From assembly GCA_001051155.2 (NCBI GenBank), contig JYIP02000012.1, forward strand, positions 520,001 to 584,000: DNA of 64,000 nt, in the 5' to 3' direction. Positions within the stretch are counted from its first letter, which is position 1. Every line of letters begins with the position of its first letter. The notes under the pieces were generated by a model, which saw nothing but the letters and a program-made list of their open reading frames with translations, was not told the DNA's origin and did not search any database. The position numbers were made by a program, and so were the translations under genes. Source of the DNA: Chrysoporthe austroafricana. Lineage: Eukaryota; Ascomycota; Sordariomycetes; Diaporthales; Cryphonectriaceae. Shown piece after piece: positions 49,390 to 64,000 of this stretch.

Positions 49390-50959
49390 TTAGCTCTCTT
49401 CCGGTAATTTCTTGATCAACCACGCACCAGCCAAAGCCGACAAGCCGCCAGCTCTCAGTAGCCACACCTCCAAGCCATTGCTTTGCCCAGCCCCGTGGGA
49501 ACCTTGAGAACCAACGAGGAGGAATAAAAGGCTACTCCCCAGAGCTGCAGCAATCTGAGGCGCGCTTATCGCGGCATTGTGAATGCCGACGACTGTGGCG
49601 GCCAGGTCCTCGGCGTCGCCTCCGTCGACCGCCCCCAGCACGTCGCCGTGCGCGCGACGGATATCTCGCGAGATCAATGTGAAAGGAATCCACGTGCCAG
49701 CCACCCAAGGTATTCCCGTCAGAGCTACCAGGACATATGCTGACTCCAGACTGTCGAAGATGAATGTGGACATCATACTGATGCAGAAGATGATCTGGCA
49801 AACCATCCATATACGACGAAGATATCCGAAGCCTTGTCGAAGACACCAGGGACGATGCTGCCGTCGCGATCCGTCTGGAAGCTCTGACGAGGCTGGCGTT
49901 TTGACGAGCCGAGGAAGAATTACAGACGCGGCCAGGGACACTGAAGCGAAAATCAGCATGGCGAAGGAGCCGGCACGGGTCATGTCTCCTTTGTACGAAG
50001 CCAGGCCTCCGACGTTCGAGCGTAAAGCGCTTTCTCTTTGGAGACCTCCGACGTATCTGGCTGTCATGTCAGCTAAAGTCGGGCACACAGGAACTCAGAT
50101 GCTGGTGCTCTCACTTCGCAATATCGTACAGGAAGGGAAACCACGCCAGCCAGCAGAAGACCTGCGCAACGCAGACCCGCCTCACCACAGTCAGCTCTCT
50201 CAAGCGTACGAGAAGAGGTCTTTGAGGCTTCTTAGGCGACAGAAGCGGGGTTGGTCTTCTTTCTTGAACAAGAGAGCAGGTGATCGAAACGCAGATCGCT
50301 AGGTTTATCGACACCAGGCTGCATAAGATCTGAAACTGAGAGTGACCAAGAAAAGGTAGCTTTCCGGAAAGATCGGCCGAGCCGATGCCGTACCCAACGA
50401 GACTGCCCATCAAGTTCAGCCTTGCTATCCACGCCTGCGCTTGTGCTTGCTGGTGCATTGGAACAAGATCAGTAGCCATGGCGCGGAGGCCTAGTTGCAC
50501 AGGCTGTATGGCAAAGTTCGCAACCAGAATGCTTGCCGTCACGAGAGCAGACAGACCCCAAGACGAGGCATGGCGGTGTTGCTCCTTGGCGCTTATTTCC
50601 CACCTCGGAGCCGGTGAAAAGGCAGTGGTGATTTCCTCGGCCCATGCCAGCGATAGCATAGCGCAGATCAGGACGAGAGAGCCAAAGACAACGAAGGGGC
50701 GCCGTTGGCCCCAGGGATGAGCACAGTTGTCGCTCATGGCGCCGATTAGCGGTTGGAAGAACAGACCGGCGCTGGGGCCGGACAGCCACATGAGAGATAT
50801 CGTGGTGTCGCGAAACCCCAGCGAGGCCAGGTAGAAATAACCGCTTCCGAAGAATACGGTAAATATTTGTTGCAGACCGAACCATCCTGCACTTAAAGTC
50901 AAGATGAATCCCAGGCTCCTGTGTTTTGAGTCTTCCGGGTCATGACGGAGGCGATCCAT
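49390..50959 (-). CDS. GPH/sucrose-transporter-like MFS protein
   Basis: Two exons on the minus strand (50959-50115, 50056-49390) give 503 residues. The intron is 58 bp with a GCTGAC branch site. Motifs are LTLSAGWFGLQQIFTVFFGSG, then WLSGPSAGLFFQPLIGAMSD and the basic loop WGQRRPFVV, with later FCWLAWFPFLYDIAK. These are typical of the glycoside-pentoside-hexuronide/SUT1 group, with about twelve membrane segments. Relatives include fungal sucrose and maltose uptake carriers. It borders the RiPP-like block, but its promoter has no CGG(A/T)CCG motif, so I place it just outside. A role in exporting a cluster product cannot be excluded. Confidence 0.9.
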
Positions 50960-51571
50960 CTTTTGTGGATTCAGATTACGCCTCGAGTTCTCCTCGGGTC
51001 CTCACTCTTTAGGAAAGCACGTATTGGTGATCCGTCGGCTTTCGCAGGTGTGACGGACTCAACGGAGTCCCCGAAGGTCAAACGAGGCTGGATGGTCAGG
51101 TGTTTGCTCACCAGTAGAATCACTGGTAGTCGCACGTCTTGGGTCGCAGCAGGCCTGGAAGTCAGAGAAATATCAACAATACGGTGGAAAGGAGCCCGTG
51201 TGCCGCACCACTCCAAATCATCTCGAGGATTCTTCGCGCTTCATTTGGCACGGGCTCGATGAGGTCGAGTCCATGTGGCAAAATCAACACTTGACCAAGG
51301 TAGCCATGCAACACTTTACTATCATTTGACTCTGTCCCTCTATTCATTCGTGTAAAATATCGTGTACGTCCTCAATCCACAGGTTGGTACCTTACTTTTG
51401 TGTGTGAAGCCAACCGAAAAGGGGGTCCATGTGGCACAGTACCGAGCCACCCGGAGGGGGGGGGGTTGTTCAAGCCGCAGCGGAGTCCAGCAACAATCTA
51501 GAAGTGTTAAGAGTCCGAGGGTACGCATTAGAGCGGAAAGCGGTCGCTCACTGGGGATCCGAGTAAGCTTG

Positions 51572-51579
51572 CGGACCGA
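51572..51579. promoter_or_regulatory. CGG(A/T)CCG operator-like motif upstream of oxidase remnant (1)
   Basis: CGGACCGA. One of two copies upstream of the berberine-bridge-type remnant. Confidence 0.45.
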
Positions 51580-51646
51580 GGCGGTACCTTTGTCGAGGTC
51601 GGAATTGCTTTGCCGCAACTTAGCTTCTTTCTACCTTAGTACCAAA

Positions 51647-51654
51647 CGGACCGG
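51647..51654. promoter_or_regulatory. CGG(A/T)CCG operator-like motif upstream of oxidase remnant (2)
   Basis: CGGACCGG, an extended match to the form found before the precursor and UstY genes. Confidence 0.5.
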
Positions 51655-51729
51655 CGTAAGTTTGTGCAGCAGTCCGGATGCCAGCATTTTCGAGTCGGTG
51701 GGACAATCATACTTATCTCACCTTGTTAA

Positions 51730-52098
51730 TCTACAAGTGCGTGCATAGTCCCTGCGGAGAGCTCGGTGCTCTTCTTGAACTACTGGAAGGAGAAGAGTGA
51801 CGACAAGATCCTTACGGTGGTGAGGGACACATTAGAAGCCACCCGTGCTCAGGCCGTGCAGAAGGACAGTCTCGTGGACTTCGTCTACCTCCCTAACGCG
51901 GCTAAGTTCCAAGACTCGATTTCCTCGTACGATTCCGAGAACAAGCAGAAGCTACAGGCAGTGAGTAGAAAGTACGATCCAGACGGGCTTTTTCAGGAGG
52001 GTGTCCCGGGTGGGTTCACGCTGTTCTATAGATTTAAGACCTTGGGATTCGCTTTGCACTATGACTACCGCATCAGTATTCAGTATACAAAACAATAG
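51730..52098 (+). pseudogene. C-terminal remnant of a berberine-bridge-type FAD oxidoreductase
   Basis: An open stretch of about 115 residues ending at 52098 matches the extreme C-terminus of fungal BBE-like FAD oxidases: a VLFLNYWKEKSDD segment, then VYLPNAAKFQDSISSY and KLQAVSRKYDPDGLFQ, closing with PGGF. There is no FAD-binding domain (about 350 residues) in any frame upstream; the preceding 750 bp hold no PCMH-type sequence. A stop lies just before the open part at 51727. It is therefore a 5'-truncated gene. BBE-like oxidases are frequent tailoring enzymes in fungal clusters, and two cluster-type promoter motifs remain upstream, so it may be a lost member of this cluster. Confidence 0.7.
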
Positions 52099-52303
52099 AT
52101 GGGCGGATTCTCGTAGTTGATATACGACTTTGGTAGAAATGGTCAGTACGAACGGCAGACGTGGCATGGAGCGGCTAACCCGAGACTATTCGGGCAGGTC
52201 TAAGAGAAAACAGGGTGTCATAAAGCAGTCTTACCAATTCTTTTTGCTAGATAAGATAGTCACAAGATAAACCTCAATGCTCTTTCATGCCGAGCCAATG
52301 CGA

Positions 52304-53006
52304 TCACCAAGTAGTCCTGTGGCAACGGTAGAAGCCAAGCACGACCTCCTGGCCAAGCCCGGTCTGGGGCTCCCGCCCTTCCTGCAGCGCGTCTGCACAA
52401 TGCTTCGAGTGCGGGTAATTGGCCGTCTTGGTGTCGATGTACTTCATTTTCTTCTCGAAGGCGTACTGCAGCTTTCTCCACTGAAAAAGGCAGTGTTCGT
52501 CGTGGTACCTAGCGGGCCGGCGAGTCAGCACGAAACCTTCCATGAGGCGAAAGCTGTAGTCCTTACCGCATTGTGTAGACCCTCGGGAACTCTCCGTTGT
52601 ACAATTGCTCCACTGTGATCTCCTGGGTCATGTTGACGTCGCTGTAGTACTGTCGGTTCTCGAAAATTGGCGGCAGCGACGATGTGAGCTCGTGGAAGTA
52701 GCACTGCGGGGGCATCCATGAGTTGAGCGGCGGGTCCATCACACAACCAAGCTCCATGGCCTCGCGGCTGGAATGGCCGCAATTGTTCCACTCTTGCGCC
52801 TCGAGCTCCTCGGCTGTCTTGGGGCGATGGAGCGATCTTGCCGTCAGAAAGAGGATGCTCGTGATCAGAGCCGCCGTCACGCATCCCACGCCAAATGAGG
52901 CAAGATTCCACCGCCATCGCCGCCGCGGACTTGGCGTTGTGTTGGTGTCTTCACCCGGCAGCGTCTCGTACTCGACATCTTTAAATGCTTCTGGTTCGTT
53001 CTTCAT
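52304..53006 (-). CDS. UstYa-like (DUF3328) oxidase, copy 1
   Basis: Two exons on the minus strand (53006-52567, 52508-52304) give 214 residues, with a 58-bp intron and consistent phases. ATG 53006 is chosen over the upstream non-ATG start. One membrane segment at about residues 36-57 follows a basic stretch (PRRRWRW), the usual type II topology. The two family motifs are present in variant form: HDEHC (about 149-153) and HSKHC (about 180-184). UstYa-family proteins are oxidases that form the ether or C-C cross-link of dikaritin peptides, with the HxxHC pairs as the likely metal site. It lies directly downstream of the precursor gene on the same strand. TCGGACCGG lies 224 bp upstream of the start. 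Confidence 0.88.
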
Positions 53007-53731
53007 AATTAGACCTAGAAGCAGCAAGCTTGCGGAGACGTGAAGGCGTGCTGTGTCGAGATGAATGAGTTATGAGGTTTAACCGTGATATAGCCTCCGA
53101 AGACTGAAAGAGCCATCAAGATCAAGGCGCTGGTTGAAGAAGCTCTCCGAGTCACACGACGATGTCTGGCTGCAAAGCTGATAACTAGAGGGAACTCGGG
53201 AATGTGGGGGCGAAAGCCCGGTTATCTGCTCGGACCGGACGGGGAGCTAGACTACTTGCCAGAAGGGGCTGTCTCGTAAAGACTTAGACTAGTGCGTCCT
53301 CGTCTAATCCTGATATCAGATAGGCCTATTCGTCTTCCTACTAGTCGCCTCATGACACCGTATAGGTTTTCCGTTAAGAGAAACAGGCACTCCTGAGATC
53401 TGTGGAAATCGTACAACTATGCTCGAAACGCACACAGCTCTTCGCATTTTCGGGGGAATGCATTGACAAGATGCACTACGGTATATGCCAATCCAAATAG
53501 TGGTGTTCGAAGTCAAGTTTTTTAATTTTTTTTTACGCGACACGGAAAGAAGCATAGCGTGGTGTGCGGGAGCTTTGGTATTTGCTAAAAGAGCCTTGGG
53601 TAAAGGGGCATCAAAGGTCTCTTAGAGAGGTACTTGCTGCACAACAGCTATTTATCATCCCCAGCTCCCTATAACATCTCTCCGCCTCTCTGCCTACAAA
53701 CACCCGCCAAGAGTCACCATTGAATACCTAT
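53007..53731. promoter_or_regulatory. Promoter region of UstY copy 1 and 3' side of the precursor gene
   Basis: Contains the operator-like TCGGACCGG at 53230-53238. No coding sequence. Confidence 0.5.
53230..53238. promoter_or_regulatory. CGG(A/T)CCG operator-like motif (UstY copy 1)
   Basis: TCGGACCGG, 224 bp upstream of the start of the gene ending at 52304. Identical to the copy before the precursor gene. Confidence 0.6.
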
Positions 53732-53910
53732 TTACTTGGTCTCGGCAACGAGGGTGTATTTGGTGCCGTCAGCGGCGATGAGCGTGTCGCCAGCATTGGC
53801 GCGTCTCTCCAGAGTGCTGGGCTCCTCGTCGGCGCTGACAATGAGGTAGGAGCGTTCCTTGACAGTGCTGGGCTCCTCGTCGGCGCTGACGATGAGGTAA
53901 GAGCGTTCAG
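53731..53910. repeat. Direct repeat unit A of the precursor gene
   Basis: About 180 bp matching 53982-54161 at a fixed offset of 251 bp. Over the best 156 bp I count five differences. It covers most of exon 3 of the precursor gene, including two core copies. Confidence 0.85.
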
Positions 53911-54331
53911 CCAGATCACGGCGAGCTTTGCTAATCACTAGGTTAGATTCCCCCCTAGCAGGAATAGGACCGAGGAAAACATTTACGTAGTCTCGGGAAC
54001 GAGGCTGTATTTGGTGCCGTCAGCGGCGATGAGCGTGTCGCCAGCACTGGCGCGTCTCTCCAGAGTGCTGGGCTCCTCGTCGGCGCTGACAATGAGGTAG
54101 GAGCGTTCCTTGACAGTGCTGGGCTCCTCATCGGCGCTGACAATGAGGTATGAGCGGTCAGCGAGCTCCGTAGGGGCGATGGCGCTGGACACGAGTATTG
54201 TTAGCTGTACCGGCCATTATGGGCACCAGCCACCGACTCAGGAATATGTGTTCTCACCGCTCGTCCACGGGGAGAGCAAGGCCGGGGGCGGCCATAGCAA
54301 TGGCGAAAGCCAGGTACTTAGCGAACTGCAT
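53732..54331 (-). CDS. Secreted RiPP precursor with four YLIV repeat units (dikaritin / KEX2-processed repeat type)
   Basis: Three exons on the minus strand (54331-54258, 54184-53987, 53930-53732) give 156 residues. Residues 1-20 are a signal peptide. A 13-residue repeat starting SYLIVSADEE occurs four times with identical sequence, at residues 36, 53, 101 and 118. Each copy follows an Arg (ADR, KER, AER, KER). A second conserved unit of about 22 residues rich in Gly/Ala/Asp follows an RR pair after each repeat pair. Secreted precursors with tandem copies of a Tyr-x-Ile-x core are the hallmark of ustiloxin- and phomopsin-type RiPPs, whose Tyr and Ile are cross-linked by UstY oxidases; six such genes surround this one. 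The flanks are monobasic, so processing may not be classical Kex2. If the second intron (56 bp) is retained, a stop follows the first two copies. Confidence 0.85.
53982..54161. repeat. Direct repeat unit B of the precursor gene
   Basis: Partner of 53731-53910. It covers most of exon 2 of the precursor gene. The end that is a splice donor here (AC/GTAAAT) corresponds to the terminal AAG-TAA stop in unit A. Confidence 0.85.
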
Positions 54332-54496
54332 TGTAAATGGTGTGTTTGAGATCAAAGACTCAAAGTGGTAAATAGACTAGGAATCTGAGCTCTAGCTACT
54401 GAGGGATGGCGAGAGACAGAAAATTCAAGGTTCCTAGCAGGCAGTCTGGCCTTTAAACACTGGGCTGAGATTGGGTGCCGGTGGCATACTGTTTTT

Positions 54497-54505
54497 TCGG
54501 ACCGG
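54497..54505. promoter_or_regulatory. CGG(A/T)CCG operator-like motif (precursor side)
   Basis: TCGGACCGG, 166 bp upstream of the precursor start codon. Confidence 0.65.
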
Positions 54506-54662
54506 CTAGGAAATCCCACCCGTTGATCAGCGGCGTAGATGCTGAAAACGCCCGGCCGCCAAAGGAGTAGCGCTCATGTGTACTCCGTACGAGTGGGCCA
54601 TCTTGTCTCTAGCCAGAGTATCTCACTGGTAAGCTGGAGACCGAAAGGAGAGTGTTCGTCTT

Positions 54663-54671
54663 CCGGTCCGA
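54663..54671. promoter_or_regulatory. CGG(A/T)CCG operator-like motif (UstY copy 2 side)
   Basis: CCGGTCCGA, the exact reverse complement of the precursor-side copy, 301 bp upstream of the gene at 54972. Confidence 0.65.
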
Positions 54672-54971
54672 TGGTTTTAGAACCAACTACCTCATCAAGT
54701 ATAGTCTCGGTCTCCACGCATTAGCAGACTATCTTTCGGTCCATAATCCCCTCCATACCATAGACGAGGGCTGATCCTAAAAAAGTCCCAAAGCTTGGCT
54801 TCGTTGTTGCTCAGTTGGCTCGATAGGAGGTGACAGCTATACGAATGACTGTTTACTTTCCTCGGCTAGCAGTGTTACAACACTTCAAAGATCAATCACA
54901 ACGCCCTCCATTCTGCCTTATTGGAAGTTAGTAGCCGTATAATTAGCCAGCCAACGAGTAAAGCCGCCTAA

Positions 54972-55898
54972 ATGCCATCAAACTCCATAGCCAGCAACCC
55001 GCTGCTGCCGGGGGGGCACTCGACGCCTTCGGCGAGGCTCCGCAGAAAGGGCTGTACGATACAAAAAAGCGTTACCCGTGGTCTCTCATCCGGCCGAGAA
55101 CACGTGGTTTTGACTATCGTCCTCATTATGACCATCGTGCAGTGGGCCCTCGTCGTGTCGTTCTGGCGAGCAGGTCCGTCGGAACAGCTGCTTGGCGAAG
55201 CTCATGGCTTGGTGCCAGACTGTATGTAACAACTCACACGCAAGAAGAATGCATATCTCCCTGCTAACTAAGACGATCCGCGCAGTTGGCACTACGGTCG
55301 TCCGTTTCAACTCTACCAGAGAAGATGGGGCGCGTGCCATGGACGTTTCGGACCCGGCATGGACAAATCTGATGCCTGGTAAGTGTAGAATTTCTGCGCC
55401 TCAAGACTACGTGATTATGATGCTCGTTTCAACTAACTCATCTCATCACAATAAGTGGGAAGTGGATTCGTGGTTGTCGATGGGTGGGACAAATTTACAG
55501 ATACTTTGCCACCGCCAATACGGTTGAACGGCGACGATATCTTTTCAGTGTCCGTCTTTCATCAACTGCATTGTCTTCATTATATCTTGAAGGAGTTCAA
55601 CAAGTTATTGCATCCGAACGAGACAAGCCACCAAAATCATAACCACACAGCAGAGCAGGGACACGATCACAGCGGGGAGAGCGAGGAAGAGGCGCTCAAG
55701 CATGTCGGGCACTGCTTCGACTACGTGCGGAACTCGCTGATGTGCTGCGGGGACGTTGCCTTCGAAGGCCAGGGGAGTGATATCGAAGACCCAGGGACTC
55801 TCGGGGAGGCCTCATATCATGTGTGCAAAAACTACGACGCGATCAAGGCTTGGGCTCAAGCTTCGCGTGCCACGAACATGAAAGGCTTCAGTGACTAG
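54972..55898 (+). CDS. UstYa-like (DUF3328) oxidase, copy 2
   Basis: Three exons (54972-55221, 55286-55378, 55456-55898) give 261 residues. Introns are 64 and 77 bp with CTAAC branch sites. A cytosolic N-terminus of about 43 residues is followed by one membrane segment at about 44-66 and a lumenal domain. The canonical motifs HQLHC (about 150-154) and HVGHC (about 197-201) are intact, with the usual companion Cys (SLMCCGDV) after the second. The linker between them is unusually His-rich (about eight His within 25 residues). It is divergent from the precursor gene, as expected for the main tailoring oxidase of such a pathway. It likely acts in the secretory pathway on the precursor after signal-peptide removal. 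Confidence 0.92.
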
Positions 55899-56222
55899 AT
55901 GAATTTGAGTAACTTCTCCGTGAGCCGTAGCTTTATGCATGATTCTATGCAAAACTGAAGGAGCACTGTATACATCAACATTAGAGTATTCATGTGGTTC
56001 TTGGTCAAGTAATCGATTATGACGGGGAGCTATGGGCCCTGATTCATGCAAAGATCTGATTCCACTCCTAAAGCCGCGTAAAGTCGGCTGACAGTCTTCT
56101 TGTCCAAAGCAACGCCACACGTAATCTGCTTCACCTGGTTGACAAGGTACAGGGATAAAGCGGCTGGGGTGATGAGATATTGTAGGATGTTTGCCTTGCT
56201 CGAGCCGAGCAGACATTCTCCT
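55899..56222. other. Region downstream of UstY copy 2 and of the TM fragment
   Basis: Minus-strand frames continue through this stretch but contain no HxxHC motif, so they do not complete the fragment at 56223-56492 into a normal UstY protein. Confidence 0.5.
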
Positions 56223-56492
56223 TCAAGCGAGAAGAGGCCGGTTCCAGGCGCGCCAGACAATGCTCATGCAGGCTACCCAGCTAGACGCGTACAAGCTAAA
56301 GACAACGATGTAGATGCAGGTCCAAAGCCGCGAAAGAGGTGGTTGACGCCATAAAACCGGCCCGACCTTGGATGCGACGGTCAGGGTATCATCGCTGCTA
56401 TCCGTATCGCTCAACCCATCCAGGTCGAATGCATCGTATGGGGTGATCTTTTTGTACTGAGTCTGGGATTCGGCGTCTTTATCGAGTGGCAT
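56223..56492 (-). CDS. Small one-TM protein, possible truncated UstY N-terminus
   Basis: An open frame of 89 residues from ATG 56492. An acidic, Ser/Asp-rich cytosolic part (DLDGLSDTDSSDDT) is followed by a single membrane segment (LWTCIYIVVFSLYASSWVACM) and then a stop. This is the layout of a UstY N-terminus, but the lumenal domain with HxxHC motifs is missing. I see no splice that would add one from the downstream 320 bp. It shares a divergent promoter region with UstY copy 4 and two cluster-type motifs. It may be a decayed UstY gene or a genuine small membrane protein of the cluster. Confidence 0.45.
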   Translation of the reverse strand: MPLDKDAESQTQYKKITPYDAFDLDGLSDTDSSDDTLTVASKVGPVLWRQPPLSRLWTCIYIVVFSLYASSWVACMSIVWRAWNRPLLA

Positions 56493-57018
56493 CGTAACTG
56501 GGACAATGGCTAAAGAGCGATAAACATCGCTACGTAGCCAGCCGAACGACCGAAACCCGCGACAGTGTGAAGGCGACGCTTTGGGCTTCTGGGAGGGCAA
56601 TGCAAGGTGCATTCCGCCTATTTTGAGATTACTGGCTGGCCCAAGAAAACAAGCACACTCGCAGTCTCTCTCGGGACTATAACCTGAAGTTTTCGCGCAG
56701 GCAGTGAGCTTACCTGGTCCGGGAGCCGGACATGTTCTCTTACCCGGTGCGAGCACTCGGACCGAGCTGGGCCAGATCCGGACCAGACAACTCCCTCGCA
56801 GGCGGCCCCCAGTGCGGATGCCTTGGGCTTTCGGAATTGAACCATGTTCCCGAAGGGAAATAGCGAGCCGTCAGATTAGGTTCCTGGCGGGCATCTTTCA
56901 ACTACTCGATGATCACTGCTCGTTGTAAACCGCCGCTCTATTTCGTCTCTCGGCCATCTTTCGTTCCGTCGAACAGCCGGAGTATTTGCTAGGTCGCTTC
57001 ATAGCCCAGACTACAAGG
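56493..57018. promoter_or_regulatory. Divergent promoter region: TM fragment (-) and UstY copy 4 (+)
   Basis: Contains TCGGACCGA (56757-56765) and TCCGGACC (56777-56784), plus a GGTCCGG at 56717-56723. Confidence 0.6.
56757..56765. promoter_or_regulatory. CGG(A/T)CCG operator-like motif (UstY copy 4)
   Basis: TCGGACCGA, 254 bp upstream of the gene at 57019. A second related half-copy begins 12 bp further on. Confidence 0.6.
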
Positions 57019-58075
57019 ATGGACAGACCCAACGCTGACGACGAGGTCGACCTCCTCAAGCGGTACTCGCATGATTCGGGGAGCCTAGAGAGCTCCGAAA
57101 TCGACCGGCGCCACTACACCGCTCAACAACAGCATCTGTCGAAACGTCGACGACTACATATTGTCAGAATTGGCTTGGATCTGGTTGTTCTGGCGTGCTT
57201 AGGCGTGGCCATCTACTTCCTGGTCCAGATCCAGGCGCAGACAGCCCACAAGCATTCCGATTGCGCTGCCGGCTCCGTCATGCACCGGGCGCCGGCTGGA
57301 TCGGATCTCAGCGGGGTGGTGCCGTTGGGTGAGTAAAAAACATGGGACTCAGATTGAAGGCCTTCATATTGCAACAGCCAAGAGAAGCTGACGAATCAAC
57401 CCTGTGTTCCTCAGGCGAGGTAGGCGGAAGGACGAAGTACAAATCCTGGATGCCACGCAAAGGCTTGTGGGTAACTCCGCATGACTTCCGCGAAGCGACG
57501 GCGTTGAATGGGACGCTCAAAGCCTGGGAACGAGTCATCAAGCGTAAGCAGGAACCATTACGCTCCGCAGACTTCCTCCTGGTCCGACCAGTTCATGGCT
57601 GACTTGCTCGTGGCAGCCTTTGTTAAAGCCGATGACTCCTGGGACCATCGAGGACCCGAGATTCCGCTTATTTACGACCTATTTGAGGTGTCCGCATTCC
57701 ATCAGGTCCATTGTCTGGTGGGTCTTATTTGGTCTCTTGGCAGGATATTGCCTGGTTCACTGACACTTTCACAAGGCCGGCATTCTGGAGGATTTCAGTT
57801 ACATGGCCATGGGAATCCCTCAGGCCAAGCTCCCCAGCGTTACCAGACTGGAACGTCTCGACTGGGCGGAGCACAATGCGCACTGCTTCAATTATGTTCT
57901 CGAGGCAATCATGTGCTTCGCCGACACCACCACTGAGGGAGCGACTCCGGGGAACCCCCCTGCTGTGCACAAGGAGGCGACGCACGTCTGCAATGACTGG
58001 GATGCTCTTTTCGAATGGTCCGAGAAGCCGGAGCATAGAATGCCTGAGGTCGACGGGCTCCGGGCTGTGAATTAA
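57019..58075 (+). CDS. UstYa-like (DUF3328) oxidase, copy 4
   Basis: Four exons (57019-57328, 57415-57543, 57617-57717, 57776-58075) give 279 residues. The third exon start was chosen at 57617 because only that acceptor keeps phase. It restores a K-PFVKADDSW join, and a GCTGAC branch site lies just upstream. A cytosolic tail with basic KRRR is followed by one membrane segment at about 54-72. Motifs HQVHC (about 175-179) and HNAHC (about 213-217) are intact, followed by NYVLEAIMCFADTTTEG. ATG 57019 was preferred to an upstream non-ATG codon. It is expected to be an oxidative cyclase or desaturase of the precursor peptide. Which reaction each UstY copy performs cannot be told from sequence. Confidence 0.88.
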
Positions 58076-58589
58076 ATGGGGATTCTACGTACTTGAAGCT
58101 GGCTTTTCTTCCGACCAAACCATCGAGCACCTCGTTTGCATGGGCGCTATGGATTTCGTGTGCATATACATGTCCGCAGCCCTATGTGTAACTAACTGAT
58201 GCTAAAATAATCAAGTATTATGATTCCAAATAGTAGCTTGGCTGCAACCAAGAAGGCTGTGCTTGGAATAGTTGAGATATTCGACAAGGAGACCAATACT
58301 TTAGATACGAGAGCTTGTATGTACTAGCATCACCGAAGAATCCAGTCCTTGTTAAAGCATTCGACATCTCCCAAGCATTTTACTGAATATTAACACAAGT
58401 GTGTAGGCTAAGGTAGGTAGATACATACTAATTAATTACTATGTATTCTTCCCCTAACATGGCGCATCGCCACAACACAAGCTCTAGTCTCGTTAGAGGA
58501 GCATGAATACTATGCTCAAGGCAAGTCCTTAGTACAATTACTCCCATTTCTTGTCTACCTCTACTTGATTAAGGCTTCGGGGTAATTAT
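58076..58589. other. Convergent 3' region between UstY copies 4 and 5
   Basis: AT-rich, no supported gene and no operator-like motif, as expected between convergent genes. Confidence 0.5.
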
Positions 58590-59328
58590 TTACTTCAGCC
58601 CCTTGAGCTGCTCTGGGAAGTAGTCATTTGCCGCGGCATACTTCATCACCACATCCCAGTTGCGACACAGATGCTCTACCCCTAAGCCGTCGCTTCTGGT
58701 GTAGCCTGGACCCAAGGGCTCAACAGTCGCGTCTGCCGCACAAAGAATGTCCTGCTTTCGATCAGCGTCTCTGAACAAGAAGAGTGAGGCTGGAGGCACG
58801 CACCCCGCGGATGAAGTCAAAACAATGCTGGATGTGCATTCTGCGGGTGATGGACTCTGCCGTCTTGCCGTTGAAGAACACCCGTCGGTCCTTGTCCGTA
58901 GCCATCATCGTGAACTCCTCCCGGATGGAGACCAGGCAGTGTAGCTTATGGAGCATGTCGATGCCCTGCGTTAGGCGGGCGCCGCTCAGGTCTCTCCATT
59001 CCATGCTCCACCAATGGTCCCGGCCCCATGGGAGCCAGACGTCCGACGTCTCTTGGTCGAACGGACGCATCTCTGGGTGGTCGGTGAAGGTGTACTGCAG
59101 CGGGGGGAGGTCGATGGGACCACCCGAGATGCCACGAGACCACCGCATGTTGAAGGAGACGGCGGATGCGGCAAGCAGGAGGGTGCAGACCAAGGGCAAC
59201 CACGGCCAGGTCGTCTTCTGCTTCTTCTCGAAGAACAGAGGCAGAGAGCCTTCGTCCTTGTCTTCCGTTTTCAGGGCCTGCATGCCTCTATACTTCCACG
59301 GCCAAGCATTCATCTTCATCGTCGACAT
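58590..59328 (-). CDS. UstYa-like (DUF3328) oxidase, copy 5
   Basis: Two exons on the minus strand (59328-58804, 58751-58590) give 228 residues. The 52-bp intron has a GTGCGT donor. The join restores the family phrase FDFIRGDILCAADAT. One membrane segment lies at about residues 41-61 after a Lys-rich stretch. HKLHC (about 127-131) and HIQHC (about 165-169) are intact. The N-terminus could start at any of three early Met codons; the first, ATG 59328, was used. It shares a 327-bp divergent promoter region with the degenerate copy 6. A long antisense-looking frame on the same strand (up to 60309) only arises by reading through the promoter. Confidence 0.88.
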
Positions 59329-59655
59329 CGGATGCTTGAACGAAAAGGTTGGGGAAATGTTTGGCGTGCTCCGTCGGCAGCGATATCGACGGACTGGACT
59401 GCAAACTAGGCTTTGGTTGAGGGAGGGGCCTGTCTGCACACCCGCGTCTAGGCGTAAGATCTCGACAGTCTCGGAGCGCCGTGCGTCGCTGCACGCCCGG
59501 CCGGTCCGAAGCGCCACCTCGGAAAACGGCCGCCCCACGCCTCCATCCGGCCATGCAGTTCCCCTCCAGAAGGCCGGTTTCCTGGCTCGATTGCCAACAT
59601 GGTCCTGTGATAGAATCGAACTGTCTCGACAGCCCTCAGCATCCACACAATCATC
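59329..59655. promoter_or_regulatory. Divergent promoter region of UstY copies 5 and 6
   Basis: 327 bp with a single CCGGTCCGA at 59501-59509, near the middle. Confidence 0.6.
59501..59509. promoter_or_regulatory. CGG(A/T)CCG operator-like motif (UstY copies 5/6)
   Basis: CCGGTCCGA, 147 bp before the copy 6 start and 173 bp before the copy 5 start. It is well placed to control both. Confidence 0.65.
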
Positions 59656-60264
59656 ATGGTCTCCTTCGGTCTTGTCTACGCGAGCGTCGCCGTCGTGGCA
59701 AGCGTCGTCCTCATCGGGCTCCCCTTCGCGGGGAGAGCCTCTCCGCCCGTCGTCCGTGGAACAAATCTCCCCGACCAGACCGTCTTCGACGAGATGCACA
59801 TGGACAACGCGTCCTACACGTCCTGGAGCGAGGAGGCCGATCGTCTCTGGGACGGCCTGCTCCCGGACAACGGCGGTTCCGTGCTCGCCACCAACCTCAC
59901 CAGCGGGTACCACTTTTGGGGGAGGGTGTCCATGTTCCACCAGCTGCAGTGCCTGAGAGACATCCGTAAACAGCTCAAGGCCATGTCCGGCTCGTGGGAC
60001 GCGTCTCGGGCCTTGATGGGCAACAGAGGCTGGGGCTCCGACTACGAGCAGTTTGGGTTCTGTTTCGACTACCTTCGGCAGGGCATCCTGTGCCACGCCG
60101 ACACTACGCTGAACCCGGTTGCTTTCAACAGCGAGTGGGCCGACGGCAAAGTGGTGGACGGCAACATCCTCTGGCACAAATGCAAAGACAGGAATGTGTT
60201 GTACGGCTGGGCCGAATTGTCTGGTTTGCCTCGTAACGTAGGTCTCCCTGAAACCCGCGGCTAG
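59656..60264 (+). CDS. UstYa-like (DUF3328) protein with degenerate motifs, copy 6
   Basis: Intronless, 202 residues. The fold is kept: a hydrophobic N-terminal anchor or signal (residues 1-27), then FWGRVSMFHQLQCLRDIRKQ and FGFCFDYLRQGILCHADTTLNP, typical UstY phrasing. The first motif reads HQLQC, not HxxHC. The second region reads QFGFC, so three of the four motif His are replaced while both Cys remain. The frame is clean and the promoter carries the shared motif, so the gene looks maintained, not decayed. It may be a non-catalytic partner of an active UstY; UstYa and UstYb act together in ustiloxin synthesis, so paired function is reasonable. It lacks the cytosolic tail of the other copies. 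Confidence 0.85.
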   Translation: MVSFGLVYASVAVVASVVLIGLPFAGRASPPVVRGTNLPDQTVFDEMHMDNASYTSWSEEADRLWDGLLPDNGGSVLATNLTSGYHFWGRVSMFHQLQCLRDIRKQLKAMSGSWDASRALMGNRGWGSDYEQFGFCFDYLRQGILCHADTTLNPVAFNSEWADGKVVDGNILWHKCKDRNVLYGWAELSGLPRNVGLPETRG

Positions 60265-60973
60265 TTGACTACCAATTCGCGGACAAAACTTGCTAATCCG
60301 GCCATGCATCAGTCTCCCCTCATCAAGGAACAGCTGATCGAACAGTAACGACGTTGGTAATAGATGGGGGACTACAAGAGCATCAGGACTGCCAACTGAT
60401 TAGAATATCTGTGTTGCAATCGCTAGGCTTTAGTTCTCAAGTATAGTACTTGGGGTAACTAGCAGAGAAAACGAAAGAGCATCCATGTTTTGGGACTTGC
60501 AAGCATTTATCTACCCCCCTTCCCCCCCTTTTTTTTTTCTGTGTGTGTTTTGTTTCCTCTGCTCAGCAGTTTAAATTCTACCTGGTGAGGAGCCTGGACT
60601 GGGGGAACACCCTTGCATTCTAAATGTGAGTGGAAGTGAACGGAAGAAAGGAAATCCAATCACGGCCCAATAATCTTTGACGAACGTAGCCTCTGGGAAG
60701 AGCGTCCTTACAGCCACCGGTCCGGAAAGAGATCGGATCTGGAGGTCTAGATGTATAGTACTAGTCGGAATTATGTGGGTGTTAGTGGCGTAGAATAAGC
60801 CAGTCGGTAATTAGTGCCTCTGGCCTCGCCGCAAGGGTCCGAGAAACCCCTACCCGCCGGACGCATGATAGCACAGGCCCCTGGACTCGTACTGTACTGA
60901 CCCAAGACGCCTGGCAGTCGTGCATCACTCAGGTTCTCTCCTCCCAACGGTGGGATCGAGAAGAGCGTCCAGC
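60265..60973. promoter_or_regulatory. Promoter region of UstY copy 7
   Basis: 3' side of copy 6, a C/T homopolymer-rich stretch at 60515-60540, and CCGGTCCGG at 60717-60725. Confidence 0.55.
60717..60725. promoter_or_regulatory. CGG(A/T)CCG operator-like motif (UstY copy 7)
   Basis: CCGGTCCGG, 249 bp upstream of the gene at 60974. Confidence 0.6.
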
Positions 60974-62123
60974 ATGTCTCGACGGGCATCGAGCAGCGAA
61001 GAGGCGGCACCTTTTCTTGATGACCCGGAAGCGCCGTCGCCGGTTTGTCACAAAGAAGCAGCTGCACTCGGCTCGCTCAAACATAAACTCTTCGTGCGCT
61101 GCGTCGCCGTCTCCAAACCAGTCCTGTGGCTTAACATTCTCCTCTTGATCGCGAACGCCGCATGGAGCATTGCCAACCTTCAGCCGAGACATGGCTCTGG
61201 ATCGAGCTCAGGCCGCCCGCGCGGAGGCATATATGGTGAGTCTTCAAGCGCAAAAGAGACTCTTAGAGGGACAAGCGTATATACTAAATGAGGCTATTCG
61301 CTATAGAGGCGGCGGGAGCGCCGATGTCGTTAGTGAACTCAACATGGAACCTTCCCATCGGCACTCGATCGCCTTTTACCGACTTGGATCCAGCTGTGGC
61401 GGATGCGGCCTGGGCGACGGTAAACATGGGAGGCAAGCGTAAGCTTCTGGTTTGAGCTGGGCACAGTGCTGTTGTGATGCTGATCCGGGATGCGACTTAC
61501 AGAGGGCTGGCTCAAGGTGCCTAAGGCCAAGGTGGATCTCATGGATCAAAGCTCGATCGAGTTCGCCGACGGCTCCGGTTACTTGTTTGGCCTGGATGTG
61601 TTCCATCAGCTGCACTGCCTGGACTTTCTCCGCAAGAAGACCGTCCTGTACCACCCCTTCTACCCCGTGGTTGAAGAAGACGAAGATATACCAGTGGCGT
61701 ATCACATCGGTGAGTAGACCATATTTCAGCCACGAGTCGCCTTGAAATTGTGCCTCGAGAGCTCAGACATCCTTGGAAGAGAAATGCCTTGGGCAGATCA
61801 GCTAATTCGAAATGCGGCACACAGCTCACTGCATAGACTCTATCCGCCTCTCTCTCCAATGCCACGCGGACCTGACGTTGATCCCACAGCGCTGGGCCGA
61901 TGGATGGATCGAGCCCTGGGCCGTCTGGACAAACCGCCATCAATGCCGCGATTTCGACTCGGTAGCCCTCTGGGCTCGTGATAACTTCCCGAATTTGGGA
62001 GGCACCTTGGTGCACCCGGAGCTGGGAGTTTTTGTTTCGGGGCATTTGAACCACTCGGCATTGCCCATTTGGGAAGAACCACATGATGACCTCCCCGACT
62101 TTTTAAATAAGGTACCTACGTAG
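60974..62123 (+). CDS. UstYa-like (DUF3328) oxidase, copy 7
   Basis: Four exons (60974-61235, 61307-61438, 61503-61709, 61825-62123) give 299 residues, with phases consistent at all three joins. Exon 2 yields the family segment GTRSPFTDLDPAVADAAWATV. Exon 3 carries HQLHC (about 166-170). The last acceptor (61824) was chosen because the frame upstream of it is closed by a stop, and it completes the second motif as HIAHC (about 199-203), followed by IDSIRLSLQCHADLTLIPQRW. One membrane segment lies at about 50-68. It is the most complete UstYa-like member here, with a long conserved tail after the second motif. It is transcribed toward the peptidase-fold gene at 62598. Confidence 0.9.
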
Positions 62124-62597
62124 GCAGGTAGTCGAGCCAGGAGATAGAATAGAGTCAAGCAAACTCGGAAAAGTCGAATCTCTCGGCTCGTGAATGCACA
62201 TCGTGATCTAGTCTCCGGCATCATATTTTGCTTAGCTCAACTAAGCTAAGTTGCATCGCAGCACCAGGTGCGAATGGTTATTGCACAATAACACAAGCCA
62301 GCCATCCTCCGTCTATGTGGTTGACAGAGACCAACGAGCATCCTGCCTGCAGGATGACACGCCGGACAGGAGCTGAGATGCTCCTCTTGTGTTCCGGACC
62401 GGGTTTCTTTTCCTTCCATTTTCGATCCGAACAACCAGCCAATCGGTGACTAGACGCGGTCGACGCTAGGACTAGATAGAGGGTGTACCTATACTTGAAC
62501 AGAATAGGGAACACACCTCGTCTGAAGCAGCACAACTTTGCACACGAGCCATCTTCGGACGGGACAATGTTTTCAAGAGGCCCGTCGTGACTTCATT
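62124..62597. promoter_or_regulatory. Promoter region of the eqolisin-fold gene
   Basis: Contains CCGGACCGG at 62394-62402. No coding sequence. Confidence 0.55.
62394..62402. promoter_or_regulatory. CGG(A/T)CCG operator-like motif (eqolisin-fold gene)
   Basis: CCGGACCGG, 196 bp upstream of the proposed start at 62598. Confidence 0.6.
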
Positions 62598-63646
62598 ATG
62601 GATCGCCTGAGCCGCCACTTGCGAGAGTCTTGGCCATATGTAGGTCCTCCGTCTCGTCCAGACCTTCCCTTTGTGTGTCACTGACACGTGGGTGAGCTTA
62701 GAGAGCTATTATCAACCACAGACTACGATACGAGGCCATCCCGCCACCGCCGCTCAGCGCGGATTGCGGCCACGGTGCCGACCAGAAATATTCCGCGGCG
62801 GGAACCTCCACAGTCGTCGCACCCCACAAGAGGAAAGTGATCATTTCATTCCTACTCGGCTTCGCATTCGCCTCTGCTATCGCTGGGGTGCTAGCTTTCG
62901 TTGTGGCAACCAATGCACAGGTTGCGGGCCGACAAGACGTCCAGCCAGGTCCCTCCAACTCCCGGTTCACGTTCACGCCCGACTGGGCCGGCGTCGTCCT
63001 GTCTACGCCACCCCCGAACCAGCGATTCGCCGCAGCCAAAGCCAGCTTGACGATACCGCACACGACAGCTGCGGAGGAGAGCAGCGGGCTTGCAGAAGCG
63101 CAAGCGGTCTCGGTGTGGCTAGGGATCGACGCTAACAGCAGAGGCTCTCCGGGCCTGCGAACAGGCCTCACGCTCAGAGCATTGCCCGACGGGGAGACGA
63201 TGCTTGAGGCTATGTATCAATGGGGCTCGGACGGCCCGCACACCTACGCCAAGCTGGGCCCCCTATCGCCGGGCGACGCGCTGCAGCTGGAAGTAGTCAT
63301 GTTCAACGAGACATTCGCCAAGGCCGAGATGCAGAACATGGCGACGGGCAGCAAGGCGACCAAGTACTGGGCACAGCCGCCGCAGCCCCAGGCGGCGCTC
63401 TCTGGCCAGAGCGTTGGGTGGATCCTGGAGGACGCCTCGTCACGTCCGGGGACGGACCGGATGGGCAAGAGCAGCTCCCTCCTAGACTTTGGGCGCGTGG
63501 TCCTGGAGCACTGCATCGTATGGACGGACAAAGATGAGCTGCTGACGGCCGATCAGGGCGACGTGTACAGGATCCGCCAGAGCGGCGTGGCACGCACTGG
63601 TGTCCACGTCGAGGAGGAGGCGGTCTTCTTCACCTTCATCGAATGA
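62598..63646 (+). CDS. Membrane-anchored eqolisin-fold (peptidase G1/A4-like) protein, catalytic residues apparently lost
   Basis: The main exon (62702-63646) is joined to a 42-bp first exon (62598-62639) through a 62-bp intron with a CTGAC branch site, giving 328 residues. The first exon is a prediction, made because the main frame has no usable Met. A Pro-rich cytosolic tail is followed by one membrane segment (about 60-83) after KRK. The lumenal domain then runs DWAGVV, AVSVWLGID, MLEAMYQWG, GDALQLEVVMFNETF, GWILED and LLDFGRV, the order of fungal glutamic peptidases. The catalytic Gln sits in an L-Q-x-G context in active enzymes but reads LRTG here (about residue 167). The catalytic Glu of the E-W-I motif reads G-W-I (about 253). 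It may be a pseudoenzyme, binding rather than cutting the peptide. Confidence 0.78.
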
Positions 63647-63705: not shown

Positions 63706-63936
63706 CTACACTACACTCTTGTGGGCCCTGACAGCTATGTCGACCAGCTCGGTAACGCGGTCGAAGAAGTCGATCGTGGGCAGCACCGACGACATTCGCG
63801 CGAAGAAGCCATGCGCGACGGCCAGCACGGCTCGCGCGTCTTCGAAATTGGCAGTTCCGTGCGTCGAGACTTGTGTGGCCATTTTGCACAGACTGAGCGA
63901 CGGCAGAAACAGAAGAATCCTATTGTTTTTGTCCAT
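63706..63936 (-). CDS. Short minus-strand frame at the right edge, possibly the last exon of a gene beyond the window
   Basis: An open frame of 76 codons ends at 63706. Its residues look structured and helical (NFEDARAVLAVAHGFFARM, then DFFDRVTELVDIAVRAH). An in-frame stop lies just upstream, but a GAG acceptor-like site precedes the first Met and CTAAG lies about 20 bp before it. It could therefore be the terminal exon of a gene whose body is outside the window. The family is not recognised. A regulatory protein is one possibility but nothing here proves it. Confidence 0.35.
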   Translation of the reverse strand: MDKNNRILLFLPSLSLCKMATQVSTHGTANFEDARAVLAVAHGFFARMSSVLPTIDFFDRVTELVDIAVRAHKSVV

Positions 63937-64000
63937 CAGGGCTCGTCAGTCACGTGTCGCTTAGTAAATAGCTAGCAGTATGTGAAGTAATTAGAGCAGC

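Follow-up and report, generated by a model that had tools for sequence, protein, structure and literature searches.

Phomopsin (phom), ustiloxin (ust) and asperipin-2a (apr) clusters are the described pathways closest to a locus of the fungus Chrysoporthe austroafricana (contig JYIP02000012.1, positions 520,001 to 584,000, a 64,000-nucleotide stretch referred to here as the window) in which a gene for a repeat-containing precursor, P, lies among genes of the UstYa (DUF3328) family. The phomopsin cluster, with a YVIP core, has a repeat precursor, five UstYa genes and a Tyr-x-Ile spacing, all as found here (PMC7329392, PMC10880069). It differs in that phomopsins need a tyrosinase (PMC7329392), which is missing from the contig here, and in the EDYxI context of its repeats (PMC6339444), which P, whose sequence differs, does not share; our locus has in addition an eqolisin-fold protein and an HxxHC protein outside Pfam. 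The secreted repeat precursor, UstYa proteins and Y-x-I core (YAIG/YVIG) of the ustiloxin cluster also recur here (PMC7329392), whereas the repeats number 16 in the precursor of ustiloxin B (PMC10512285) against four and two diverged copies in P, and two UstYa genes stand there beside a tyrosinase (PMC7329392). Asperipin-2a is likewise made by UstYa-type cyclisation, from a cluster without a peptidase gene (PMC12048977), but its cluster has a single UstYa gene (PMC7329392), compared with five, one of them degenerate, plus the UstYa-like gene A at our locus.

DUF3328 proteins are dimeric binuclear copper enzymes; CctR, ApnU and AprY are copper- and O2-dependent dimers of this type whose catalytic part lies in an organelle lumen (PMC12435403), and three phomopsin UstYa proteins desaturate residues (PMC10880069). 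A survey of Kex2-processed repeat proteins (KEPs) found 1758 precursors with UstYa genes nearby (PMC7329392), and a 2022 review counted only five reported dikaritins (PMC10512285). PMC10372822 covers Aspergillus flavus ustiloxin and mycoviruses, and the available parts of PMC11267912 and PMC9632046 hold nothing on the present cluster. Among the literature matches listed, no title or abstract opening names the SYLIV core or this gene set. The locus, called apparently undescribed in a preliminary description, thus keeps that status among those matches, although the P family may sit unnamed in the survey tables of PMC7329392, whose supplement may list the Cryphonectria parasitica precursor. As far as the literature searched goes, we see a further case of a known kind of pathway, some parts of which have no earlier description in such pathways. 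We consider it probable that the locus is a dikaritin-like gene cluster for a ribosomally synthesised and post-translationally modified peptide (RiPP), making a modified peptide from P.

A repeat precursor among UstYa genes

The region 52304-63646 of the window contains eight open genes and one short frame, in the order A(-) P(-) C(+) D(-, 89 amino acids) E(+) F(-) G(+) H(+) I(+). Genes were modelled by splicing with GT-AG introns, domains were called by a Pfam search of the predicted proteins, and hydrophobic stretches were taken from hydropathy. The genes are as follows.

52304..53006, minus strand: gene A, UstYa-like, 214 amino acids, 2 exons, one hydrophobic stretch; HDEHC and HSKHC; no Pfam match
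53732..54331, minus strand: gene P, precursor, 156 amino acids, 3 exons (54331-54258, 54184-53987, 53930-53732); hydrophobic leader and repeats
54972..55898, plus strand: gene C, UstYa family, 261 amino acids, 3 exons; PF11807 5.8e-24; HQLHC and HVGHC
56223..56492, minus strand: gene D, 89 amino acids, one hydrophobic stretch; lacks HxxHC and any Pfam match; promoter region common with E
57019..58075, plus strand: gene E, UstYa family, 279 amino acids, 4 exons; PF11807 2.2e-18; HQVHC and HNAHC
58590..59328, minus strand: gene F, UstYa family, 228 amino acids, 2 exons; PF11807 5.5e-19; HKLHC and HIQHC
59656..60264, plus strand: gene G, UstYa family, 202 amino acids; PF11807 1.2e-15; HQLQC and QFGFC; frame intact
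60974..62123, plus strand: gene H, UstYa family, 299 amino acids, 4 exons; PF11807 5.8e-38; HQLHC and HIAHC
62598..63646, plus strand: gene I, 328 amino acids, 2 exons, hydrophobic stretch near the N-terminus; PF01828 (Peptidase_A4) 3.2e-30

P carries four SYLIVSADEEP copies and two diverged copies of the form GDTLIAADGTKY[ST]LV. After the hydrophobic leader, judged a signal by eye and hydropathy, come two near-identical units, each encoded by its own exon, with 8 of 170 bases differing between them; each unit comprises SYLIVSADEEPST twice and then a diverged third copy, GDTLIAADGTKY[ST]LV. A Tyr is present in every one of the six repeats. The gene is single: the three stretches found in a search of the genome are its own three exons, with no second locus. 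Its four Pfam matches all fall under their cut-offs, and a tandem repeat finder did not report the array. Ustiloxin and phomopsin cores follow a Y-x-I-x pattern in which Tyr and Ile are joined (PMC7329392). The YLIV of P conforms to this pattern, which makes the proposed Tyr-Leu-Ile-Val core plausible, although the surrounding EDYxI context is lacking.

Around P, five of the seven UstY-like candidates (C, E, F, G and H) match PF11807, the UstYa/DUF3328 family, and five (A, C, E, F and H) keep both HxxHC motifs. A genome-wide profile search returned at least 50 PF11807 stretches in 48.15 Mb. Six of these, belonging to five genes, are packed into ~6.5 kb of the window (55530-61985), a density above chance. 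Another group of UstYa stretches lies near the other end of the same 673 kb contig (C4:55502-60760). Comparisons with the PDB added little: a profile of six UstY-like proteins gave two matches among PDB sequences, the better at a meaningless E of 0.86, and the predicted structure of a UstYa relative, P0004 (42 rows; predicted local distance difference test, pLDDT, 69.8), gave 19 Foldseek matches in the PDB, 0 of them at E <=0.001.

The preliminary description had inventoried a precursor, five genes that carry both HxxHC motifs, a degenerate UstY, a fragment with one transmembrane (TM) stretch and an eqolisin-fold gene, and this inventory is borne out. Some of its wording needs narrowing. The paired motifs are present in all five genes, but A falls outside PF11807, and the family check that it had proposed succeeds for C, E, F, G and H but not for A or D. 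Its "nearly all divergent pairs" describes P/C, D/E and F/G but not A, H and I, and its BBE-oxidase remnant reaches 15.7 bits against PF08031, under the cut-off of 20.6. Absent from that account were a Zn2Cys6 gene just downstream and a promoter motif common to the cluster.

A promoter element common to nine genes and conservation of the precursor

We scanned the six intergenic regions of the cluster for trinucleotide palindromes with gaps of 0-12 (832 in total). CGG-N-CCG was the sole palindrome found in all six. Seven CGGWCCG sites were observed against 0.38 expected, a number reached in none of 2000 first-order Markov simulations, and the extended form YCGGWCCGR occurs eight times in 84 kb, seven of these in the cluster's intergenic regions. 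The YCGGWCCGR sites below come from the motif scan and carry no strand.

53230..53238: upstream of A, at 224 bp
54497..54505: P/C interval, first site
54663..54671: P/C interval, second site
56757..56765: D/E interval
59501..59509: F/G interval
60717..60725: upstream of H
62394..62402: upstream of I

All nine genes have a site 155-332 bp before the ATG (C has a second, at 475), and seven sites suffice for nine genes as P/C, D/E and F/G each use a common promoter region. At the genome-wide rate (1342 YCGGWCCGR in 48.15 Mb), 0.095 sites would be predicted in these 3402 bp where seven are seen; the Poisson chance of at least seven is 1.3e-11, uncorrected for the post hoc choice of motif. Across ten 10 kb regions around other UstYa loci (100 kb) there are two sites in all, so the element is no general feature of UstYa genes. 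The nine genes look like one regulon, and the element offers a testable boundary for the cluster.

Zn2Cys6 proteins usually target inverted CGG half-sites, and the adjacent gene is therefore the first candidate for the regulator:

63706..64000, minus strand: 3' end of a Zn2Cys6 regulator gene (PF00172 3.5e-8, spliced N-terminus), its extent modelled by eye from reading frames; start beyond the window, at ~66.7 kb (L009:2755)

The precursor itself is conserved. A protein search with P returned two matches at E <=1 among 89 candidates. P0001, from C. parasitica EP155, has 156 amino acids and 88% identity (E 7e-77); the match of P0002 is confined to exon 1 (22 of 25 residues, E 0.3). The 19 differences between P and P0001 spare residues 1-33 entirely, and two fall within the four SYLIVxADEEP cores (44 residues), compared with 17 in the other 79. 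An H orthologue of C. parasitica (P0003, M406DRAFT_350927; 92% over 202 aligned columns) is on a scaffold of the same size as that of P0001 (5,118,729), and P0002 is on a contig equal in size (19,899) to that of P0015, which matches exon 1 of A at 78%; from these equal sizes we infer that P is linked to H and to A, respectively. In Diaporthe australafricana a single model, P0081 (Daus18300_002483), contains the middle of H (89% over 81) and I (88% over 314). It probably represents two neighbouring genes fused, a UstYa piece and an eqolisin-fold protein, as is expected because H and I are neighbours. The comparison of relatives proposed in the preliminary description thus bears out a conserved P and its linkage to A and H, but does not extend to C, E, F and G, for which the profile search, with its word filter, recovered no close orthologues. 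The C. parasitica precursor provides a second place to test the cluster.

This shared context bears on whether P might instead give rise to linear, unmodified secreted peptides of a signal or pheromone-like kind, with the neighbouring UstYa genes acting elsewhere. Only 22% of KEPs had a UstYa gene among their 15 closest genes (PMC7329392), the cross-link in the P peptide is a prediction, and P lacks the EDYxI context that known cyclised cores have. Against this, P has its promoter region and YCGGWCCGR in common with UstYa genes, it is linked in two other genomes, to A in one and to H in the other, and Tyr is retained in all six repeats; we regard linear peptides as an unlikely outcome.

Genes A, G and I

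Three genes of the cluster raise questions of their own: a copper-enzyme family that has gone unrecognised (A), a UstYa protein without most copper ligands (G) and an eqolisin fold without its Gln (I).

Gene A has no Pfam family at E 1, nor do its relatives P0015, P0057 and P0079 at E 0.1, yet its layout is a TM helix (by hydropathy) followed by HxxHC(x)nHxxHC. Its splice is backed by relatives that align across the junction, such as P0079. In the family alignment both HxxHC motifs are present in 12 of 12 members, and the first is HxEHC in every one. In a profile comparison with 24 UstYa proteins the motif pairs align, at a probability of only 33%. The predicted structure (A3, 12 rows) has a mean pLDDT of 61.6, too low for a fold search; it places the motifs on two helices, which at that confidence is weak support. 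P0014, of a Hypoxylon, is an A-like protein joined to a UstYa domain. The genome contains four further, more distant copies of A (27-31% identity), one of which (C16:257862-258233, with an HxxHC pair and 31% identity to A) lies inside a UstYa region, C16:257172-261774; the other three have no PF11807 stretch close by among the matches listed. Homology of the A family to UstYa is likely, though not proven.

Gene G keeps one of the four motif His and both Cys, so that most copper ligands are gone. In CctR, which works as a dimer, Ala mutants of motif His and Cys lost all activity (PMC12435403); G should therefore not be an enzyme of the CctR kind, and a partner role is our guess. Gene D is possibly a truncated UstY, judging by its position and TM stretch. 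A third reduced part lies outside the shared-promoter set:

51730..52098, plus strand: decayed C-terminal fragment of a BBE-type oxidase; PF08031 15.7 bits, cut-off 20.6, E 0.015

Gene I matches scytalidopepsin B (1s2b) and aspergillopepsin II (1y43) over the domain, with E of 7e-7 and 2.7e-9. We take the catalytic dyad of scytalidopepsin B to be Gln53 and Glu136. In the alignment, I has Arg in place of Gln53 and retains Glu136. It thus resembles eqolisins (G1 glutamic peptidases) in its domain sequence and dyad Glu but differs in the change from Gln to Arg and in an N-terminal hydrophobic anchor. Arg and Glu are found in all seven I-family members recovered, down to 52% identity, whereas both Gln and Glu are retained at all six other eqolisin loci examined in this genome (a seventh, C1:2859055, was left out). 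These patterns are best fitted by a conserved substitution in the active site, not decay.

The same genes bear on whether the cluster as a whole might be decaying, its product no longer made in this species. The D fragment, the loss of three of four motif His in G and the BBE remnant would fit such decay, as would the two of five C. parasitica dibasic pairs that are not dibasic in P. On the other hand, A, P, C, E, F, G, H and I all have open frames, none of the nine genes lacks a promoter site, and identity to the C. parasitica counterparts is 88% for P and 92% for H, with few core changes. We consider a defunct cluster improbable. A broader idea, which we find doubtful, is that this locus represents a fungal RiPP branch in which catalytically dead relatives serve as working parts, a G-like UstYa paired with an active one and an I-like protein holding or presenting the peptide, alongside a copper-enzyme family (HxEHC) unseen by Pfam. 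Such a family would imply that fungal UstYa-type chemistry has been undercounted.

Proposed pathway and class membership

In the dikaritin-like pathway that we favour, P would enter the secretory path and be cut at dibasic sites by Kex2-type proteases, releasing peptides that contain SYLIV(S/A)ADEEP. The membrane-anchored, binuclear-copper UstYa oxidases C, E, F and H, and probably A, would then act on the peptide in the organelle lumen, cross-linking or desaturating it. The most likely bond would join the Tyr and Ile side chains, favoured because these residues are spaced as in the Y-x-I of the ustiloxin and phomopsin cores. A Tyr-Ile cross-link with one or more desaturations is our tentative best guess for the product, given the Y-x-I-x fit and the desaturating UstYa proteins of the phomopsin pathway. 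G may be a non-catalytic helper, a UstYa protein that has shed most copper ligands and may pair with F, and the membrane-anchored I may be another, binding the peptide instead of cleaving it with the usual dyad. The nine genes would be switched via YCGGWCCGR by a Zn2Cys6 regulator, probably that of the adjacent gene. The gene models, families, motifs, common promoter element, conservation and linkage elsewhere are observations; in this scheme the cleavage, the cross-link, the roles of G and I and the choice of regulator are inferred, and the copper chemistry would follow that described in the literature.

Dikaritins have been defined in two ways. The newer definition takes UstYa as the class-defining enzyme; the older one asks for a tyrosinase with a methyltransferase, transporter or peptidase, although the tyrosinase is not universal (PMC12048977). 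By the newer definition, five genes here exceed the PF11807 cut-off. P has an N-terminal signal (by eye and hydropathy) and a repeated core. Candidates for the parts named by the older definition are an MFS gene outside the shared-promoter set and I, a peptidase fold without the usual Gln. A UstY-rich, RiPP-type cluster is well supported because a precursor and PF11807 genes occur together, with linkage, a common promoter element and conservation of the precursor. A strict dikaritin label would be incomplete, since the contig lacks a tyrosinase and this copy of P has few dibasic sites.

Several observations weigh against the assignment. None of the genome's 18 tyrosinase (PF00264) stretches lies on the window contig (C4). 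There is also no S41 peptidase on C4, the one PF03572 stretch being on C12, and no Methyltransf_25 among the best 50 of 97 candidates (other methyltransferase families were not searched). The nearest P450 among the 92 of 255 candidates scored, C4:481510, is 38 kb before the window. The precursor has three dibasic pairs (KR, KK, RK or RR) compared with five in that of C. parasitica. The Methods of the KEP survey specify at least three repeats between dibasic sites (PMC7329392), and with only three dibasic pairs the P copy here falls short of that arrangement. Ustiloxin and phomopsin repeats carry the EDYxI context (PMC6339444), in place of which P has RSYLI, though other dikaritins deviate too. 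YCGGWCCGR is absent before the regulator gene itself, and partial decay is seen in D, in G and in the BBE remnant. Among the 84 matches at E 1e-5 from a six-row profile search, the best match was H in 58 cases, A in 17, C in seven (24.5-32%), E in one (34%) and I in one, with 0 for F and G. Close orthologues of C, E, F and G did not turn up, an absence that carries little weight given the word filter of the search. Lastly, P0003 and the H model part ways after AYHI, with the second HxxHC still incomplete. The H exon here has another frame that matches the P0003 residues after AYHI, and the public gene model is probably wrongly spliced.

It is very improbable that the UstYa genes serve a non-ribosomal or other substrate with P a mere neighbour, as UstYa proteins do in other pathways such as that of cyclochlorotine (PMC12435403), since none of the 38 Condensation stretches (PF00668) in the genome lies on C4 and P sits inside the shared-promoter set.

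Beyond the cluster, MFS, SDR, FMN dehydrogenase and GTP cyclohydrolase II genes were considered as members and rejected, having no YCGGWCCGR nearby; the motif is likewise absent before the MFS gene and the BBE remnant. The MFS gene, of the MFS_2 transporter type, adjoins the cluster at 49390-51001 of the window. Upstream of it and of the BBE remnant, CGGWCCG cores stand at 51572 and 51647 without the flanks of the cluster motif.

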